NCBI GenBank assembly: GCA_014898425.1
Contig: RCSZ01000015.1
Span: 1,054,001 to 1,118,000 of the forward strand
DNA from: Botryotinia globosa
Taxonomy: Eukaryota; Ascomycota; Leotiomycetes; Helotiales; Sclerotiniaceae
Reading direction: 5' to 3'
Length of the DNA stretch: 64,000 bases
A program made the translations under genes and the position numbers. The first letter of the stretch is position 1. Each line of letters begins with the position of its first letter. Below, piece by piece: positions 899-64,000 of this stretch. The notes beneath the pieces are model-generated. The model did no database searches. It was not told the DNA's origin and saw nothing but the letters and a program-made list of their open reading frames with translations.

Positions 899-1492
899 TT
901 CGTAGAAATTTATGCAATATTAAAGAAAGATTCGGGAAGAAAAACGAAGTAGCTTATCAGCTGTGGTCGTCTACGGTATTGATGGGGTTGATCTCAAGTC
1001 TCCAAAGCTCAGAAATGTTTCTTACGGCCAAAGCTATCGATAAATTTTGGGAATTTTAAGTCCAGCGGCTCTCGGACCAATCTAAATCCACCCACCAAAT
1101 ATTTTGAAAGGACAATCGTCGCGTCCTTGTCAGATTGATTGATTGGCACTCAGTACGGGTAGCTACTAGGTAGTTCGTCGTCATAATCCTCTCACCTAGA
1201 CATTGGCTTCACAATTCAATTGAATTATTCAATATATTTATTAATTACATGATAATTGGAAATATCTTTAATTGATTTTCTTATTTTCAAGTCCAATTGA
1301 CCATATTAGGTACAGACAAACATAGCTGGAGGTGTGCGGGAGCGCTTGCTCCTTTCGGTTACTCCTACTCTGGGATATATGTCTATGGATCAACCTGAAC
1401 CTTAAAACACGTCCCTTTCGATACATAACTTCCTCATACTCATCAACTCAACCCTCTTTTTTGGCTCTTCCTGACGCCGTAACTACATAATT
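899..1492. other. Divergent intergenic region TOM20 / EXO84
   Basis: 594 bp between two divergently transcribed genes. It must hold both 5' leaders and promoters. An AT-rich stretch lies at about 1200-1270 and pyrimidine-rich leader sequence at about 1400-1470, upstream of EXO84. No further gene was recognised. Confidence 0.5.
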
Positions 1493-3675
1493 ATGTCGGA
1501 CGAGAGGAAAGGCGTGTCTCTAAGGACTAAGAGGAAGGGTCGCCCAGCAATAAGTGCTCCCAAACAGATATCTGGTCCCATTCCACAAACCGGAGGAGAT
1601 GCTTCACGAAGTGCTGGGCAGCCATCCTTTAATGCCCCGCCCACGCAACGTCCTCAGCCTGGCGGAAAGGTATGTCAAAGTTTATCTTAAGTTCTCTTGT
1701 TAGAAAGGTCTAGTTATTTTTGGTATGGCGGCTAATAGAAGTCATAGACATCTGATCTAGTGAAACGGCGATACTCTACTCGATTTAACAATCTTCCCTC
1801 TGACTTCGACCCTTCCGCTCCTCCTCTCCCATCTGTTCCCAATTTACCAGCTCAGTATGCCCCAGCAAATGACCGTTCACGAGGTCCCTCGCCGGCGAGA
1901 GGACCTGGCTTGGTAGTAGACCAACGAGCTCTGCGCGATCCCAATTTGAGGCCAGATGTGTACGTAGCGGGACTACTAAGTGATGCATCGGAACAAGATA
2001 TTGAGGACTATCAAACCAATCTGAGGAAGATGAAGAATCGTACTTCTACGGATTTACAGCAAAATGTGTATCAAAATCGAACGCAGTTCATCAAGATTAG
2101 TAAGGAGGCAGAAAAGCTCAAAGGGGAGATGCGCGCACTCCGAAATCTGATGGCGGAGCTCAAAACCAATACCACTGCGCTAAGAACTACCTCTTCACAA
2201 GGTCCATCATCCTCGTCGACTGATTTTGACGGCTTTCCACCAGCTTTGAGCAAAAGGGACAAGCGAAGTTCTGTGGCAGACCGAACTGTCATGTGGAACT
2301 CGCAGCTTCAAGTAGGTCCACGCTTTTCAAGTATTAGTTGGTAGGAGTACTAATTTTGCTAGGCTTTATGGAAGACCATTGAGGGCTCCCAAAAGTTTCT
2401 ACCAGCGGCCCCTGGTCGTCACGTGGTTCAAAATGCCGGGCTTTGGATAGAGCTTGATAATGCTACTTGGAAATCTCGAAGAGCCATGCAGATTGTTCTG
2501 TTGAATGATCATCTTCTAGTCGCATCAAGAAAAAAGCGAAAAGTTGAGGGAGCCGATCAACGACAAGCGCCATCAAAGTTGGTGGCAGACAGATGCTGGC
2601 CACTGTTAGACATCGAAATTGTTGACCTTGCAGGGACGAGTGAAGGGACTAGTGTGCGTAATAAGTTGGCCGATGCGATCATGATTAGAGGTGTAGGTCA
2701 GGAATCTTTTACCTATCGAACGGAAAAACCAGGTGATATGGAAAAGTCCTCTCTCATGATGAACTTTCGAAAGGCAGTAGAAGAGCTTCATAAAGGCCTC
2801 CGTTCGGAACTGGAAACGAGCAACAAGGCCAAAGAAACGATTAACTACTTTGCCTCTCGTGACCCGGGATTGTTAAAGAAGACAGATTTACTTGAGACAC
2901 TTTCGGACATCAAAGATATGCTTATCGAAGTTGATGGCAAGCAGCAAAATCTGCGGTGGGTGGAAAGTCAGGTTGATGAGTTGGATATCGAAATCGCACT
3001 GCAGCATTTTGACATGGCAGTCCAACGAGTTGCAAAACTAAATTCTTTAGCCAAGGGTCTTAAAAGCAATATCGTCGCCCAGGATTTCATTAGTTTTAAA
3101 GCAGACGAAAGAGCCACCAGACTTGCAGAACTAATCACCCGTGAACTTGTTGACACACATAATGAACCGAAAAAAGTTAAACGCAATATCAGCTGGTTAA
3201 CAAGTCTTGGCTTCGAGGATCGGGCAAGAGAAGCGTATCTTGAAGCTCGGGGGGATATCATTCATAAGAGATCAAGGTATGCTTCAATAACTTTTATTTA
3301 ACCGGCTCCACTAATTTGTATAAAAGACAATGTATATTCGAAGGTAATCTTCATCAATATATCTGGGAGGTATCATTCGTGTACTTCACAATAATACGGA
3401 ATACTGTGTCAACCTTTCAAGCCTGCTTTCCACAGCCTCTTATGAGCGCATGTGTCAAATGGGCCAAAGAGCAGGTTGATGCGTTCAATGTTATTCTTGC
3501 ACGACAGCTTAGCAGCACCGATAAGAATGGTCAAGTATGGACGAATTGTATGGATCAGGCAAGAGAACATGCAAAGATGCTCTCCGAAGTCGCTTTAGAC
3601 TTTAGCAGTCTCATTGGTTCAACCCCGATAGATATTGTCAATGGTCCCAGACGCGTAGGGTTAGGCTTGGCATAA
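1493..3675 (+). CDS. EXO84: Exocyst complex component Exo84
   Basis: Subunit of the octameric exocyst that tethers post-Golgi vesicles to the plasma membrane before SNARE fusion. Exons 1493-1669, 1748-2311, 2363-3276 and 3327-3675 join in frame to 667 residues. Residues 1-90 are a basic, Pro-rich disordered region. A Vps51/Exo84-type helical segment follows from about residue 100 (DPNLRPDVYVAGLLSDAS and the coiled coil after it). A PH-like domain starts near residue 250 (GLWIELDNATWKSRRAMQIV), and the helical CATCHR-type C-terminus contains ACVKWAKEQVDAFNVILARQ. Length is typical for fungal Exo84. The last junction, which creates RQCIFEGNLHQY, is supported by the fungal consensus in this part of the protein. 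Nothing appears broken. Confidence 0.93.
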
Positions 3676-4297
3676 TACTGTATCGAATGGGCAAACTGGT
3701 ATACATATCAAAACCAACTTTAAAACTCGGCCAAAGATATCTTCACACAATGTTCAAGAAATACTATTTACGTAGATGTCTATCTACACTCCTACAGCAA
3801 TTTAGTCGTTGGATTTATGAATTTAATAAGATATTCACATCCCTTTCGCTGTTGCTAATACTTAATCTTGCTTCCGTAATTCATTGATAAATAAAGTTGA
3901 GAAAATAAAGCTAATAAATATGACATCTGCCTTGACGCATGCTCTCTTGCCTCTTCCAAATATAAATGCCAAATCCTCTCTTCATTGCGATCTTGAAATC
4001 TGCTTATTAAGCGAGGAGCTGTTCCTTTCAAATAATCTGCGCACCGCTTCTACAACCTGAAAGCCCCTCCACAAACATTTCTGTACGACGAACGCCCTGA
4101 AATCTTATGATAAAATTGCTTCTGCGATTCTCAACATAAGATACTAGTTGAAGTTGCGCGGACCGCTTCCCGAAAAGAACAACAAACTTAAATAGCCCTT
4201 TTGACGACCAACCCGCGCGCTTGTCGTCACCAAGCTCGAGCAATTCAATATCGACAACCAAATTAACAACAAACCATCAAATTTATCATACGATAGA
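3676..4297. other. Intergenic region EXO84 / PP2A
   Basis: 622 bp holding the EXO84 3' end and the leader and promoter of the phosphatase gene. It is AT-rich around 3760-3910 and CA-rich directly before the PP2A start. Short open frames here show no recognisable protein. Confidence 0.5.
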
Positions 4298-5632
4298 ATG
4301 AACACAATGGATACAGATATGGCAGATGTAGGCAGGACGGTTGAGCCCACGGGATTATCTCCAGTAGCGGAACCTGCTTCAATACCAACTCTTGATGGGT
4401 GGATTGAGAACTTGATGGCGTGCAAGCAACTGGCCGAGGTCGACGTTCAGAGGCTTTGCGATAAGGTATTATTGTTTGCGAATCTTGTCATATTCTCAGA
4501 CTGCATAGTGTGAGCAAGCTAATCAAGAACGTGTTACCAGGCACGAGAAGTATTGCAAGACGAGTCGAATGTACAGCCGGTGGTATGCTTGCCCTTTTCG
4601 TGTTGGAATTCAAAGAGCTGATCAACGATCTAGAAATGCCCTGTTACTGTCTGCGGAGATATTCATGGGCAATTCCATGATCTAATGGAGCTCTTCAGGA
4701 TTGGTGGACCAAACCCAGATACCAATTATCTATTTATGGGCATGCCTCCTATCCCTTACTGTCATTTCCTGGAATTACTGACACGTTATCATAGGTGATT
4801 ATGTTGATCGAGGTTATTACTCAGTCGAAACTGTCACTCTTTTAGTTGCTCTAAAAATAAGATACCCCCAAAGAATCACCATCCTCCGCGGTAACCACGA
4901 ATCCCGCCAGATCACTCAAGTTTATGGATTTTACGACGAGTGCCTCCGAAAATATGGAAATGCAAATGTTTGGAAGTACTTTACCGATCTCTTCGACTAC
5001 CTTCCCCTCACCGCCCTCATCGACAACCAAATCTTTTGTCTCCACGGAGGTCTTTCCCCCAGCATTGACACGTTGGACAACATCAGAGCTCTTGATCGTA
5101 TACAAGAAGTGCCACATGAAGGTCCCATGTGCGACTTGCTATGGTCGGATCCAGATGACAGATGCGGATGGGGAATATCCCCTAGAGGAGCAGGTTACAC
5201 TTTCGGACAAGACATTTCGGAGGCGTTCAACCATAATAACGGATTGACCTTAGTCGCAAGGGCTCATCAATTGGTCATGGAGGGATATAATTGGTCTCAA
5301 GATAGAAACGTAGTTACAATCTTCTCAGGTATGGTACCTTTATCTCTTTCAGCGGTGTCTGATGCTAACCATAAAATAGCCCCCAATTACTGCTACAGAT
5401 GTGGTAACCAAGCAGCAATCATGGAGATTGATGAGCACCTTAAATATACTTTGTAAGTAGCAACTTTATCCTCCTCGATCTCGCAGTCTCTAATATAATG
5501 CAGCCTACAATTTGATCCATGCCCAAGAGCTGGAGAACCAATGGTATCACGTCGTAAGTGCCCTACAAATTCAAATATCTGTTGCACCTTATACTAACTA
5601 TGGCGATAGGTACTCCCGATTACTTCCTCTAG
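4298..5632 (+). CDS. PPH21: Serine/threonine protein phosphatase 2A catalytic subunit
   Basis: Metal-dependent PPP phosphatase, the catalytic C subunit of PP2A. Seven exons (4298-4465, 4541-4582, 4634-4739, 4795-5328, 5380-5452, 5504-5553, 5610-5632) give 331 residues. Visible PPP signatures are GDIHG, GDYVDRG, GNHES, the [11 protein letters not shown] block, [12 protein letters not shown] and [12 protein letters not shown]. The C-terminus ends RRTPDYFL, the PP2A tail whose last Leu is carboxymethylated and whose Tyr is phosphorylated in the family. These features separate it from PP1, PP4 and PP6. The N-terminus carries about 24 extra residues before the conserved start. The intron inside GDYVDRG (4740-4794) has a GC donor (GCATGC). 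Without splicing it the invariant motif is lost and a stop follows, so the GC-AG call is strong. Confidence 0.96.
4740..4794 (+). other. Non-canonical GC-AG intron in PP2A gene
   Basis: 55-nt intron with donor G|GCATGC and acceptor CATAG|GTGAT. It interrupts the Gly codon of the invariant MGDYVDRG motif. No GT donor nearby restores the frame, and retention leads to a TGA directly after the acceptor. Confidence 0.88.
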
Positions 5633-58831: not shown

Positions 58832-60084
58832 TCATGACGAGATGGTTCGTCATAGCCTGGTTTGATGGACAGATCAGCGACTCACTAGTAAGTAGTATAT
58901 GTATATTCACGATAGGATATTGACCCAAGACTTTAGTTCTGACCTGTTGATTAGATGGACCAATGGCACACTGCTATCAAATATTTCACTACCAATCCAA
59001 ACAAAGTTTCAGGCACCAAGTAGACGTCGGTACTCGAACAAAGTTTATTTTCTAACGGTTTTCATTTTGAGACTGGTACATAGTTTACCCTTTCTCGATA
59101 CCTAAAACCCCACAATATCAAGTTGAGCGATATTTTGGAGTCTAGACAACTGGTGAACGAAGAGAATAAATAGTAAACACCGTCGGGTCCTTCCATTGAT
59201 CAATTTCTCTTCCTTTCTATAACGTTCTGCAATATCTACTATGAATCATCATACGGTCTTGGTACACCACCAAGACTTTCCTTTCCGTACGTCCAACTCT
59301 AAAATACACCAATGGCTAGGATTTCATTATCACTATCTATTCTTTGAGCTATAGTGTGAATGCTATGACACTATCTATGTCCTCAAACTTCAATGCAGTT
59401 CCCGATTCTTTCCTCTCTTTTGCTTTCTAGAAATATGGGTTTGTATTCAATCACCCAAATCATTGATACAAGTTGAAGAAGACTGTTCGGTAGTGCGAAC
59501 TACAGTTCAACAGTCAAAAGCTTTGGAACATTCAAACGCTTTTGATGATTGAAACTATTTCAGTTGTTAAAAGTCATCCAAACATTGAAATCATTTCAGA
59601 CATTGAAGTCATGTCAGATATCGGAATTCTTACAATTGTTGAATCTGTTTGAAACCATAACTGATAAGAGTATTCTCAGAATACTGAAATTGTGATACGA
59701 AATTGGGTGACACTATGGACTATCGGGAATATGGCTTCGAGGGGGTTGCTATACTTGTGAACTTTTGTTTTCTCACGTATAGTAATAACAACCTTGATAT
59801 CTAGATCCACCCGAGGGTCAATTGACCAAACCACATATTAGTCTCTCAAATTTCTTCTTGGTATTTTATAATTGACGTGTATTGTTTCCTAGTCTGAGGA
59901 AATCAAGAAAACGGTTGCTTGCAAAGTTACTAGTCAATCAAATTTAATCACCAGTGGGATTCATTCTCATATAAGTATATCCCTCTTAATTTCAAGCTTT
60001 CTTTTCTACTTCCTTACAATCCAGACCTTGAAAGATTCGAAAGTCGTCTGAAATACTCTCTCCTAATTACAAGCATCGGTCAAG
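58832..60084. other. Upstream region of the Ser/His-rich repeat gene
   Basis: 1.25 kb. Holds the URK1 3' end and a promoter-like segment with a pyrimidine-rich leader right before 60,085. It contains three related ~18-bp units (GATTGAAACTATTTCAG, ACATTGAAATCATTTCAG, ACATTGAAGTCATGTCAG) between about 59,547 and 59,617. Confidence 0.5.
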
Positions 60085-63000
60085 ATGCGTTGCAAACGCA
60101 ATGCCCTCATCGCGGCTGCTGGACTTGCTTCCACTGCCAATGCCCACTTCGAAAAACCATCCAATTACCATTCGTCTGCTGTTATCCCATCAATCACCAC
60201 AGGCAACTCAGTTTCGACCCACTCATCCAACCTACATTCAGCTCATACACCTAGCTCAGATTCAATTCACTGGTCCCATGCAAGCCCCGTTGAAACCTCC
60301 GCTTTCCATTCGAGTGTGATTTCTGCTCCGGTTCATTCATCAAAGTCGGAATTATCTCACCCATTCAATACTGTCCCTGTAATAAGTTCGACTCCACACT
60401 CCAGTGTAGCTTCTGTTTCAAGTCATTCGTCCAAAGTTCCGTCGATCCACTCCTCGAAGATTACCCCTAAAGGTTCGAGTGCCCATTCCAGTGTGGCTGC
60501 TGTCTCGAGCCATTCATCCAGCTTACCATGGACTCACTCATCCGACGTGATTTCCATGCACTCCTCCTTGGCTTCAACTCATTTATCTAATCTGGCTTCA
60601 ACTCACTCACCCAAGACCGCTTCCATCATAAGCTCCGCTAGTCATTCTAGTCAAGATTCTATTCACACTCCCCTAGCTCATCATTCCAATACGGGCCATA
60701 GCAAAAGTTCTGCTGGTCATTCTAGCAAAACTTCGGCCGACACTTCCTTGAATTCAGTTCACACTTCCTTGACATCAGCTTATCATTCCAATACGATCCA
60801 TAGCAAAAGTACCGCTATTCATTCTAGTAAAGATTCAGTTCACACTTCCTTAGCTCATCATTCCAGTGCGGGCCATAGCAAGAGTTCAACTGGTCATTCT
60901 AGCAAAGATTCGATTCACACTTCTCTGCCTCATTATTCCAATGCGGATCATAGCAAAAGTTCTGCTGGTCATTCTAGCAAAGTTTCAGCTCACGATTCCT
61001 TGACTTCAGCTCATCACTCTAATACGATCCATAGCAAAAGTTCCGTTATACATTCCAGTGCAGCTTCAACTCACACGTCATTGGCTTCCAGTGATCATTT
61101 TCATGCGATCCCTAGTTCAAGCTCTGCTGATCATTCCAGTAAAGCCTCAGTTCACGCGTATTTGCCTTCGAGTCATTCAAGTTTAACCTCAAGTCATCAC
61201 TTCAACACAATGGACAGTATAAGTTCTGCTAGTCATTCTAGTAAAGCTCCGATTCAGACATCTAAGTCTTCGAGTCATCACTCGGATGCTATTACTAGTA
61301 AACATACTCTTGGTCATTCCAGCATCGCTCCGGCTCATACACCCTTGAGTTCCAGTCACTCAACCTTGAGTTCAAGTCATCACTCTGCGAGCCATGTTTC
61401 AACTCCTAGTCATTCTGGTGTGGCTTCGACTCACTCATCTCATGCGGAATCTGTTGCAACTTCTAGCCATACCAGCGTCGCTTCGTTTCATACATCCTTA
61501 GTTTCCAAACACTCCACCTTGATTTCGAGTCACTTATCCAACTTCGCTTCGAGTCATCACTCTGATGCGAGCCATGTCGCAACTGCTAGTCATTCTGGTT
61601 TAATTCCGGTTCACACGTCCTTGGCTTCGAGTCACTCGTCCTATGCAGAATCCATTGCAACTTCTCACCATTCTGGTGTAGCTTCGATTCACTCGTCCCA
61701 TACAGACTCCGTTACCACCTCTAGTCATGTCAGTAAAGCTTCAGAACACTCATCCCATGCGGATTCTGTTGCTGCTTCTAGTCATACCAGTATAGATTCC
61801 GAACACTCAGCTCCTCACTCATCCCACTCATCCCACTTGGTCTCCAGTTCCACTGTTCATTCGGTGCATCCATCTAATGTGGCCTCGGCTCATCATACCA
61901 ACCCTACTTCGAGCCATTCATCTCATATCGTGCACAGTACGACTCCCGTTGTCCATTCCAGTGTAACTCCGGTGCATAAATCTACCTCGATTCACTCTCT
62001 TCATTCTTATACGGATTCTGCGCATTCATCTCAAAAATCCTCTGCTATTCATTCTAGTATGAATTCGGCTCATTTATCCAGCTTGGCCTCTTTTCATTCC
62101 AGTGTATCTTCCGCGTATAAATCCAGCTTTACTTCCGTTTTATATTCTAGCACCGCTTCTGAGCATTCATCCAATCAAGCCTCTACTATTCATTCTAGTA
62201 AGGTTTCGATACATCCATCCAGCTCAACTTACGCTTCACATTCTCATGTAGCTTCAGTTGTTTCCAGTTCAGCCTCGGTGCATTCATCCACCCTAAGCTC
62301 TGGTACTCATTCTACTGGACCATCGATTCATTCTGGTAAACCATCGGTTCATCCCGGCGAGTTATCGGTTTATCCATGGAAATCGGCCTCTTCCCATTCT
62401 AGTATGACTGCTGCTCATTCTAGTATGACTTCTGCTCATTCTGGTACACATTCGGTTCATTCTAGTATACCTATGGTTCATCCATCAAGCTCGAACTCCT
62501 TACAATCTAGTATAGCTTCTGTCCATTCTAGTGGACAGCCAGCTCATCCATCAAGCACGGCTGCTTCTTATCATTCCAGTGAACAGCCGGCTCACCCGTC
62601 AAAGACGACTTCTCATCATTCTAATGAACATTCGGTCTACCACTCAAGCACGGCTTCTCATCATTCTAATGAACAGCCGGCTCACCCGTCAAAGACGGCT
62701 TCTCACCATTCTAATGAACAGTCAGCTCATCCATCATCGAGCTTGAAATCTTTCCATTCTAGTACATGTTCAGATCATTCCAGTGAACCATCGGTTCATC
62801 CATCAAGCTCGGTGCTTCTTCATTATGGTGCAACTTCGGCTCATACCAGTGGACTATCAGTTCATTACAGTGAGCCATGGGTTCATCCATCAGCCTTAAC
62901 TTCGACTGTTCATAGCAGGGTGTCAACTTCGGATTCGCCATCCAATACGATACCAGAGCAATCTTCAGTTCATTCATCCAGTCATGTTCCTGTTAAAACT

Positions 63001-64000
63001 TCCATTCTTCATTCTGTAACTTCGGACTTGCCATCTTACACTGTTCCAAAAGTCTCTTCAAAAGAAATCTTTAGCACACCAAGAGTTTCTTCTAACATGA
63101 CCTCAATCCCTATCCCAACTTCCACTCATTCATCTGAAATTGTTACAGGACTTTCTTCGACTACAAAGTCGAGTATTATTAATTATGGCCCTACCGAAAC
63201 CGGCAGCTCTGCATCAAATGATGTCACTACGCACACCTCAAAATCTTCTACCATTTCCTCAACTGCTGAATCTAGTCAAAGTAGTCTTGAAATTGTTGGA
63301 TCTACAAAGACAAATGGATGGGCTTCTTATACATACTCCTCGTCATCCAGCAAGACTACAAGTGAAATTGAGAAAGAGAAATCCAAAACTGCCTCTTCAC
63401 CAAGTATTTCAGCATCTACTGGAGCTTACAAATATGGATCAGTCACTTCTGAATCATCTCCAAGTGCTTCAGCAGAATCAACAGAAACTGACAGCACAGT
63501 GACAACTGGAATTTCTTCTACCTCATCCGACTCTTCGGTGCCCAAAGCCCCTCATATCTCAACCTTCTCATCGATTCCAAATTATTATACTCAATCTGTC
63601 GAATATTCAAAATCTAAATGGACTGATACTACAACTGCGGTTGGAGCATCTTCCACCCTATCTAGTGGAAGCTCGTCTATTCTATCTGATTCTTCTACAC
63701 TTAGAGTCTCTTCTGATGCCCCATCAACGACACAATCTTTCAGCCATCAGACCACCAACGGCGCATCAGATATTGTTGAATCATACAGTCACCAAGCCAC
63801 GAATATTCCATCAACAAAACAACCGGTCTACTACCAAACTACCGATGCTTCATCAAGTGTTGTTCAATCACACAGCGAACAGACTACCCATATTTCATCG
63901 ACAAAATCATTCAATCACCATACTACCCATGTCCCATCAAGTGTTCTTGAACAATCATCTGTAACTCAAGGATATCAAAGTGGATCAGTAATTTCAGCCG
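60085..64000 (+). CDS. Giant secreted Ser/His-rich repeat protein (partial, runs off the window)
   Basis: Reading from the ATG at 60085, every codon to the right edge is sense: 1,305 complete codons and no intron needed. Residues 1-20 (MRCKRNALIAAAGLASTANA) form a signal peptide with an ANA cleavage site before HFEKP. The mature chain is built from short imperfect units such as S-x-H-S-S, HSSKxSxHTSL and GHSKSSAGHSSK. A hand count gives about 140 His in the 960 codons from 60121 to 63000, with Ser the dominant residue. Only two Cys occur in the whole visible part. Locally tandem blocks exist, for example ASHHSNEQPAHPSKT at about 62,590-62,735. After about 63,000 His becomes rarer and the sequence is a Ser/Thr-rich stalk as in cell-wall mannoproteins. 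A C-terminal GPI signal, if any, lies outside. Function unknown; surface adhesion or metal binding are guesses. Confidence 0.85.
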   Translation, partial: MRCKRNALIAAAGLASTANAHFEKPSNYHSSAVIPSITTGNSVSTHSSNLHSAHTPSSDSIHWSHASPVETSAFHSSVISAPVHSSKSELSHPFNTVPVISSTPHSSVASVSSHSSKVPSIHSSKITPKGSSAHSSVAAVSSHSSSLPWTHSSDVISMHSSLASTHLSNLASTHSPKTASIISSASHSSQDSIHTPLAHHSNTGHSKSSAGHSSKTSADTSLNSVHTSLTSAYHSNTIHSKSTAIHSSKDSVHTSLAHHSSAGHSKSSTGHSSKDSIHTSLPHYSNADHSKSSAGHSSKVSAHDSLTSAHHSNTIHSKSSVIHSSAASTHTSLASSDHFHAIPSSSSADHSSKASVHAYLPSSHSSLTSSHHFNTMDSISSASHSSKAPIQTSKSSSHHSDAITSKHTLGHSSIAPAHTPLSSSHSTLSSSHHSASHVSTPSHSGVASTHSSHAESVATSSHTSVASFHTSLVSKHSTLISSHLSNFASSHHSDASHVATASHSGLIPVHTSLASSHSSYAESIATSHHSGVASIHSSHTDSVTTSSHVSKASEHSSHADSVAASSHTSIDSEHSAPHSSHSSHLVSSSTVHSVHPSNVASAHHTNPTSSHSSHIVHSTTPVVHSSVTPVHKSTSIHSLHSYTDSAHSSQKSSAIHSSMNSAHLSSLASFHSSVSSAYKSSFTSVLYSSTASEHSSNQASTIHSSKVSIHPSSSTYASHSHVASVVSSSASVHSSTLSSGTHSTGPSIHSGKPSVHPGELSVYPWKSASSHSSMTAAHSSMTSAHSGTHSVHSSIPMVHPSSSNSLQSSIASVHSSGQPAHPSSTAASYHSSEQPAHPSKTTSHHSNEHSVYHSSTASHHSNEQPAHPSKTASHHSNEQSAHPSSSLKSFHSSTCSDHSSEPSVHPSSSVLLHYGATSAHTSGLSVHYSEPWVHPSALTSTVHSRVSTSDSPSNTIPEQSSVHSSSHVPVKTSILHSVTSDLPSYTVPKVSSKEIFSTPRVSSNMTSIPIPTSTHSSEIVTGLSSTTKSSIINYGPTETGSSASNDVTTHTSKSSTISSTAESSQSSLEIVGSTKTNGWASYTYSSSSSKTTSEIEKEKSKTASSPSISASTGAYKYGSVTSESSPSASAESTETDSTVTTGISSTSSDSSVPKAPHISTFSSIPNYYTQSVEYSKSKWTDTTTAVGASSTLSSGSSSILSDSSTLRVSSDAPSTTQSFSHQTTNGASDIVESYSHQATNIPSTKQPVYYQTTDASSSVVQSHSEQTTHISSTKSFNHHTTHVPSSVLEQSSVTQGYQSGSVISA
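60661..61080 (+). repeat. Coding tandem repeat, units of about 25-35 residues
   Basis: Four to five imperfect copies of HHSNTGHSKSSAGHSSK followed by (T/D)S(V/I)HTSL within the Ser/His-rich protein. Copies start near 60,679, 60,784, 60,856, 60,937 and 61,015. Conservation is visible at both DNA and protein level. Confidence 0.75.

Follow-up and report, generated by a model that had tools for sequence, protein, structure and literature searches.

Gene and protein architecture

A 64,000-nucleotide stretch of the Botryotinia globosa genome (contig RCSZ01000015.1, positions 1,054,001 to 1,118,000), referred to here as the window, ends inside a plus-strand gene for a histidine-rich protein with C-terminal LysM domains. 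The reading frame starts at 60085 and is open to the window edge at 64000, encoding 1,305 residues, 151 of which are His. Contig C15, to which the window belongs, is one of the 27 contigs that make up a 45.7 Mb genome (C15 coordinate = window position + 1054000). When the frame was continued into the same contig, using a stretch identical to the window over 5,000 shared bases, the stop was found at window-equivalent 67573-67575 (C15:1121575). The whole frame has no N bases and no internal stop; the protein comprises 2,496 amino acids with 270 His (10.8%) and has an unglycosylated mature mass of ~257 kDa. The window thus holds only about half of the gene, and the C-terminal half, which carries five LysM domains, lies beyond its edge. 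A first-pass annotation of the window had described a frame of more than 1,300 residues with about 140 His in the first 960 and almost no Cys; we counted 138 His, and the only two Cys in the window part are residues 3 and 895. An early stop beyond the edge, which the same annotation named as a possible refutation, does not occur.

An in-frame TAA at 60064-60066, 18 bases 5' of the ATG, bounds the start. To compare the frame with chance, 200 first-order Markov sequences matching it in dinucleotide composition were generated; their longest open stretches were 343 codons or fewer, with at most 8.4% His, versus 2,496 codons and 10.8% His in the gene. The other five frames of the gene hold 55, 152, 170, 171, and 149 stops. 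A chance open frame is ruled out by these two comparisons, and the anatomy of the protein, summarized in Table 1, is near certain.

Table 1. Features of the gene and the encoded protein (positions on the window scale, window-equivalent beyond 64000; borders of H1, linker, H2, and Cys region placed by eye)
Feature	Position	Strand	Basis or remark
TATA-like stretch, possible core promoter	59970..59979	+	sequence only; begins 115 bases upstream of start
Part of 2,496-residue gene inside window	60085..64000	+	open frame
Putative signal peptide, residues 1-20	60085..60144	+	by eye and hydropathy
H1 stalk, residues 21-990	60145..63054	+	counts; 141 His/970, heptad rhythm
Ser/Thr-rich, His-poor linker, residues 991-1404	63055..64296	+	13 His/414; first 315 residues inside window (to 64000)
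H2 stalk, residues 1405-1850	64297-65634	+	71 His/446, period 6, one C-x7-C pair
Cys-loop region, residues 1851-2205	65635-66699	+	33 His/355, eight C-x8-C loops
Five LysM domains, residues 2218-2477	66736-67515	+	Pfam
Basic tail and stop	67516-67575	+	tail common to relatives P0128 and P0129

The N-terminus has a basic start, followed by the 12-mer with the highest hydrophobicity anywhere in the protein (residues 7-18) and then A-N-A. Judged by eye and from this hydropathy, these residues look like a signal peptide, and the LysM protein is probably secreted. A cut after A-N-A would leave a mature chain that starts with His (window 60145-60147), which may be chance; copper-dependent polysaccharide monooxygenases have mature chains of this kind, and the Pfam scan gave no match to such a domain in the protein. 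The stalk of ~2,200 residues, rich in Ser, Thr, and His, is probably O-glycosylated and disordered. Its proposed attachment had to be revised: the first-pass annotation thought of an O-mannosylated stalk and suggested a search for a glycosylphosphatidylinositol (GPI) signal, and a hydrophobic GPI-type C-terminal signal, looked for in the complete protein, was absent. The last 30 residues are basic, with a mean hydropathy of -0.93. A GPI-anchored wall protein is ruled out by the LysM end and the basic tail, and a LysM-anchored reading replaces that of the wall stalk. The picture of a long, extended, His-saturated, and probably secreted protein is upheld.

LysM domains and predicted chitin binding

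The five LysM domains were detected with a Pfam E-value of 1.5e-55 (185.3 bits versus a cut-off of 20.9). They are 36-52% identical to one another, and each contains 0 Cys, which places them by the no-or-one-Cys criterion in the fungal/bacterial LysM class (PMC4392113; this and the papers cited below are drawn on from part of their text). At E up to 1, the Pfam scan of the protein returned LysM-type models only, with no catalytic domain and no other family.

The structure was predicted with AlphaFold for P0128, a relative that is 91% identical in the LysM part, together with 16 related proteins. Five beta-alpha-alpha-beta units were obtained, with ten-residue block means of the predicted local distance difference test (pLDDT) mostly at 67-86 and lower values at the joints, whereas the part of the stalk present in P0128 was predicted to be disordered (pLDDT 37-44). 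Given a mean pLDDT of 63 and a predicted template modelling score of 0.25, the mutual arrangement of the domains is not fixed by the model. The best match of this model in the Protein Data Bank (PDB), found with Foldseek, was Ecp6 with a chitin tetramer (E 3.1e-11), and one modelled domain reached a target TM-score of 0.95 with CtCBM50 bound to a chitin trisaccharide. A sequence comparison with the PDB agreed with these structural LysM matches. Because of their domain family, the five LysM domains are predicted to bind chitin, and we consider such binding likely. Most of the named proteins among the LysM matches listed are bacterial, and a bacterial origin of the array was therefore considered; a tree built from domains of only 45 residues could scarcely decide the matter.

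Relatives in other species

Three protein searches were run, with admitted lengths of about 1,373-4,368, 605-1,926, and 196-625 aa. The first yielded 7 matches, the second 267, and the third 958; the candidates scored numbered 7,990 in the second and 7,999 in the third, and the best 120 of the 267 and of the 958 matches were considered. Among the matches listed there were two close relatives, P0128 and P0129, and no full-length orthologue with a long stalk; this absence is weak evidence, since other Botrytis species may be missing from the database or carry other gene models. The closest, P0128 (BOTNAR_0192g00140), is a hypothetical, LysM domain-containing protein of 400 aa from Botryotinia narcissicola (Sclerotiniaceae). 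It is identical at 252 of 276 aligned positions in the LysM part and tail, and the end of the stalk is conserved as well: identity extends to 106 of the final 124 stalk residues in the alignment, all four Cys included, with a seven-residue gap. The deposited model starts at a Met equivalent to Met 2088, and nearly the whole stalk is absent, suggesting that the low-complexity stalk was dropped during annotation. P0129 covers only the LysM part and tail, with 85% identity. When 243 proteins were compared by their His-richest 100-residue stretch, only P0146 (17 His) exceeded P0128 (12). P0146 is a LysM protein, bacterial by its looks, with a His- and acid-rich N-terminal region (residues 1-110), and is another kind of protein.

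Three histidine repeats and retention of histidine codons

Three distinct His repeats occur in one chain, with a period of 7 in H1, a period of 6 in H2, and Cys-pair units ~45 residues apart in the Cys-loop region. In H1, 49 of the 140 His-to-His gaps are exactly 7, and the standard deviation of the gaps is 3.6 versus 6.4 under random placement; 25 of 70 gaps in H2 are exactly 6, and 14 of 32 in the Cys-loop region are exactly 9. The eight C-x8-C loops are spaced at intervals of 40 to 51 residues, four of the seven intervals being 45; seven of the loops start with C-I-P-x-I-H, and four carry two His. The even spacing that had been noted from the window is therefore real, whereas the single H-S-S rhythm that went with it gives way to three different repeats. 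The three Ser/His-rich repeats differ, and a His-poor linker separates the first from the second, so that amplification of a single unit can hardly account for them.

We then asked of each segment how often the third base of CAN codons yields Gln instead of His, relative to the purine share at fourfold sites of the same segment. Gln accounted for 10 of 151 CAN codons in H1 (37% expected) and for 0 of 71 in H2 (40% expected), whereas no bias was seen in the linker (12 of 25; 44% expected) or the LysM part (9 of 21; 37% expected). Repeats are not independent and third-base use varies by amino acid, so the direction of these differences is used rather than P values. CAT and CAC are both in use, at 101/40 in H1 and 42/29 in H2. 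The His codons of H1 and H2 thus resist drift to Gln, unlike those of the linker and the LysM part.

Neighbouring genes and other LysM loci

The gene is preceded by an exon of uracil phosphoribosyltransferase. On the downstream side are a small protein and a 587-aa protein without a Pfam match, together with an aldo/keto reductase and a fragment that is weakly like a major facilitator transporter, below the family cut-off. Downstream there is also a short tandem repeat (L002:7515-7850), which several frames of either strand translate into recurring short peptides; it was not taken as a gene. The neighbouring genes point to no pathway.

A family of His stalks in the genome was looked for with two queries, residues 21-805 (785 aa) of the stalk and the Cys-loop piece 1856-2198 (343 aa), H2 not being among them. 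Each matched only itself at E up to 0.01, and such a family was rejected on this basis. Ten LysM matches were listed in the genome, five in this gene and five elsewhere, and no His-rich open frame was found around the latter five places (0.5 to 4.0% His). At C2:950998-952576, two minus-strand frames bearing LysM adjoin a plus-strand exon of a GH18 chitinase, resembling the chitinase-LysM gene neighbours known from other fungi (PMC4480369, PMC5118889). On the minus strand of C19 (L004:1336-2319), a 328-aa frame encodes a CVNH domain with LysM inserted within it, plus a glycine-zipper stretch. A second repeat-plus-LysM build is found on the minus strand of C17 (L011:1498-2208), where LysM follows a low-complexity Pro/Ala/Gly repeat region; its His content is 0.8% for the build as a whole.

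Discussion

Grey moulds change the pH around them. Our best single guess, to which we give a probability of roughly 0.45 and which we rank ahead of three other explanations, is that the protein is a secreted structural component of the wall or an extracellular sheath, working as a chitin-anchored, pH-switching, and cross-linkable His brush. The five C-terminal LysM domains would grip chitin, while the Ser/Thr/His stalk would project as a brush. Below about pH 6, the His residues would make the brush strongly positive, permitting the binding of acidic polymers; near neutral pH, free imidazoles could hold metal ions and react with laccase-made quinones, yielding a cross-linked chitin-bound layer. 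If a pKa of 6.3 is assumed for His, the calculated charge of the mature chain without glycans is about +235 at pH 5, +147 at pH 6, and +10 at pH 7, so that the pH-dependent charge suggested in the first-pass annotation agrees with calculation.

The cross-linking step is proposed because of a likeness to cuticle proteins of Tribolium. TcCPR27, TcCPR18, and TcCP30 contain 16, 10, and 21% His and are joined by laccase 2 and catechol, in which, according to the authors, His very likely takes part (PMC4440208). The likeness is confined to a His-rich, cross-linkable mode of working, and no shared ancestry is claimed: these are animal proteins, of which TcCPR27 and TcCPR18 are members of the R&R family rather than LysM proteins and TcCP30 lacks R&R. 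The R&R chitin-binding motif had no Pfam match in our protein at E up to 1. Squid beak offers a similar combination of chitin-binding (DgCBP) and disordered His-rich (DgHBP) proteins (PMC9716703) with pH-driven behaviour, in that phase separation of the His-rich proteins starts as His loses protons with the pH rising to 6-7 (PMC6884462). In squid, however, these are two separate protein families with GHGLY repeats, and our protein contains 0 GHG and 0 GHGLY.

Several observations weigh against such a brush. Gln makes up 7 of 40 CAN codons in the Cys region versus 35% expected, a weak bias only. Among repeat copies, nonsynonymous changes outnumber synonymous ones, and His is gained or lost, each in 14 of 15 ungapped comparisons, with one array partly out of register. 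At the stalk end of P0128, 12 of 13 His are kept, as conservation of His between species would require, but this concerns only 124 residues in which non-His positions are kept hardly less well (94 of 111). Finally, no laccase or melanin gene was found among the neighbours scanned. Taken together with the codon retention, the turnover of His among repeat copies implies that it is the density of His, rather than its individual positions, that seems to be conserved.

Fungal LysM proteins are best known as small effectors, and the explanation that survives best after the His brush, although we regard it as unlikely, is an effector of the Ecp6/Slp1 kind, which would capture chitin fragments or shield hyphae from plant chitinases, with the stalk as no more than a glycosylated spacer whose His residues serve no particular function. 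The small size of known members argues against it; we know of no His-rich stalk of this length for Ecp6/Slp1-type effectors, nor of a longer one on LysM domains. A spacer also needs no His, yet the protein has three His-rich repeats and keeps the His codons of H1 and H2. In favour of an effector, Ecp6 is the top Foldseek match, and Ecp6 and Slp1 are secreted, as this protein probably is, and share with it LysM domains without internal Cys and the lack of a catalytic domain (PMC4392113), although Ecp6 has three LysM domains (three stretches in the PDB comparison) versus five here. Fungal LysM proteins are, moreover, able to protect hyphae (PMC7176902). BcLysM1 of Botrytis cinerea, likewise a grey-mould LysM protein, is reported as a LysM effector in a review citing Crumiere et al. 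2025 (PMC13000976); it is compared here by that citation only and may be this gene or another.

The stalk might instead serve as a chitin-tethered metal store or shield that binds Zn, Cu, or Ni for uptake or exclusion. The density of His and the C-x8-C loops, half of which carry two His, suit this role, but we consider it quite improbable: His is protonated in acid surroundings and then binds metals poorly, and no metal gene is present among the neighbours scanned. A precedent is Dld1 of Serendipita, a secreted His/Ala-rich protein listed in metal homeostasis (PMC9610748). Dld1 and the other DELD proteins are likewise secreted fungal proteins with regularly placed His (PMC9610748, PMC3192844); however, they are His/Ala proteins of 101-135 aa that are predicted to be helical and have an RSIDELD end, a motif that is absent from the 2,496-aa protein.

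Least probable is that low-complexity DNA expanded neutrally within a frame tolerant of hydrophilic residues, with His as a by-product of CAT/CAC-bearing repeats. In its favour, the gene DNA contains tandem arrays whose units measure 18 to 135 bp, and repeat copies differ mainly by amino-acid changes. Against it, 7.5 kb lack a stop, the three repeats differ, CAT and CAC are both used in H1 and H2, where Gln codons are rare or absent in contrast to the freely drifting linker, and the stalk end is kept in a second species.

In its boldest form, the His brush would be a fungal counterpart of animal chitin tanning, in which a chitin-gripping head carries a His polymer that is cross-linked by laccase-made quinones and metal ions under the control of pH, so that wall, sheath, or sclerotium is hardened or glued. 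This version is doubtful.

No His-rich LysM protein was found in the titles or abstract openings searched, nor is histidine mentioned in the part of a LysM paper drawn on here (PMC5118889). One survey reports a B. cinerea secretome without LysM proteins (PMC4480369), although BcLysM1 is described from that species in the later review (PMC13000976). Because the deposited form of the close named relative lacks nearly all of the stalk, surveys of predicted secretomes could miss this architecture. Five LysM domains on such a long His-rich stalk are an unusual build beside the small LysM effectors. The build resembles that of hardening proteins of insect cuticle and may make the fungal surface responsive to acidity, metals, or oxidised phenols. 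Should the His brush prove to cross-link or to respond to pH, wall hardening or adhesion of grey moulds could be traced to a molecular basis that experiments can test.

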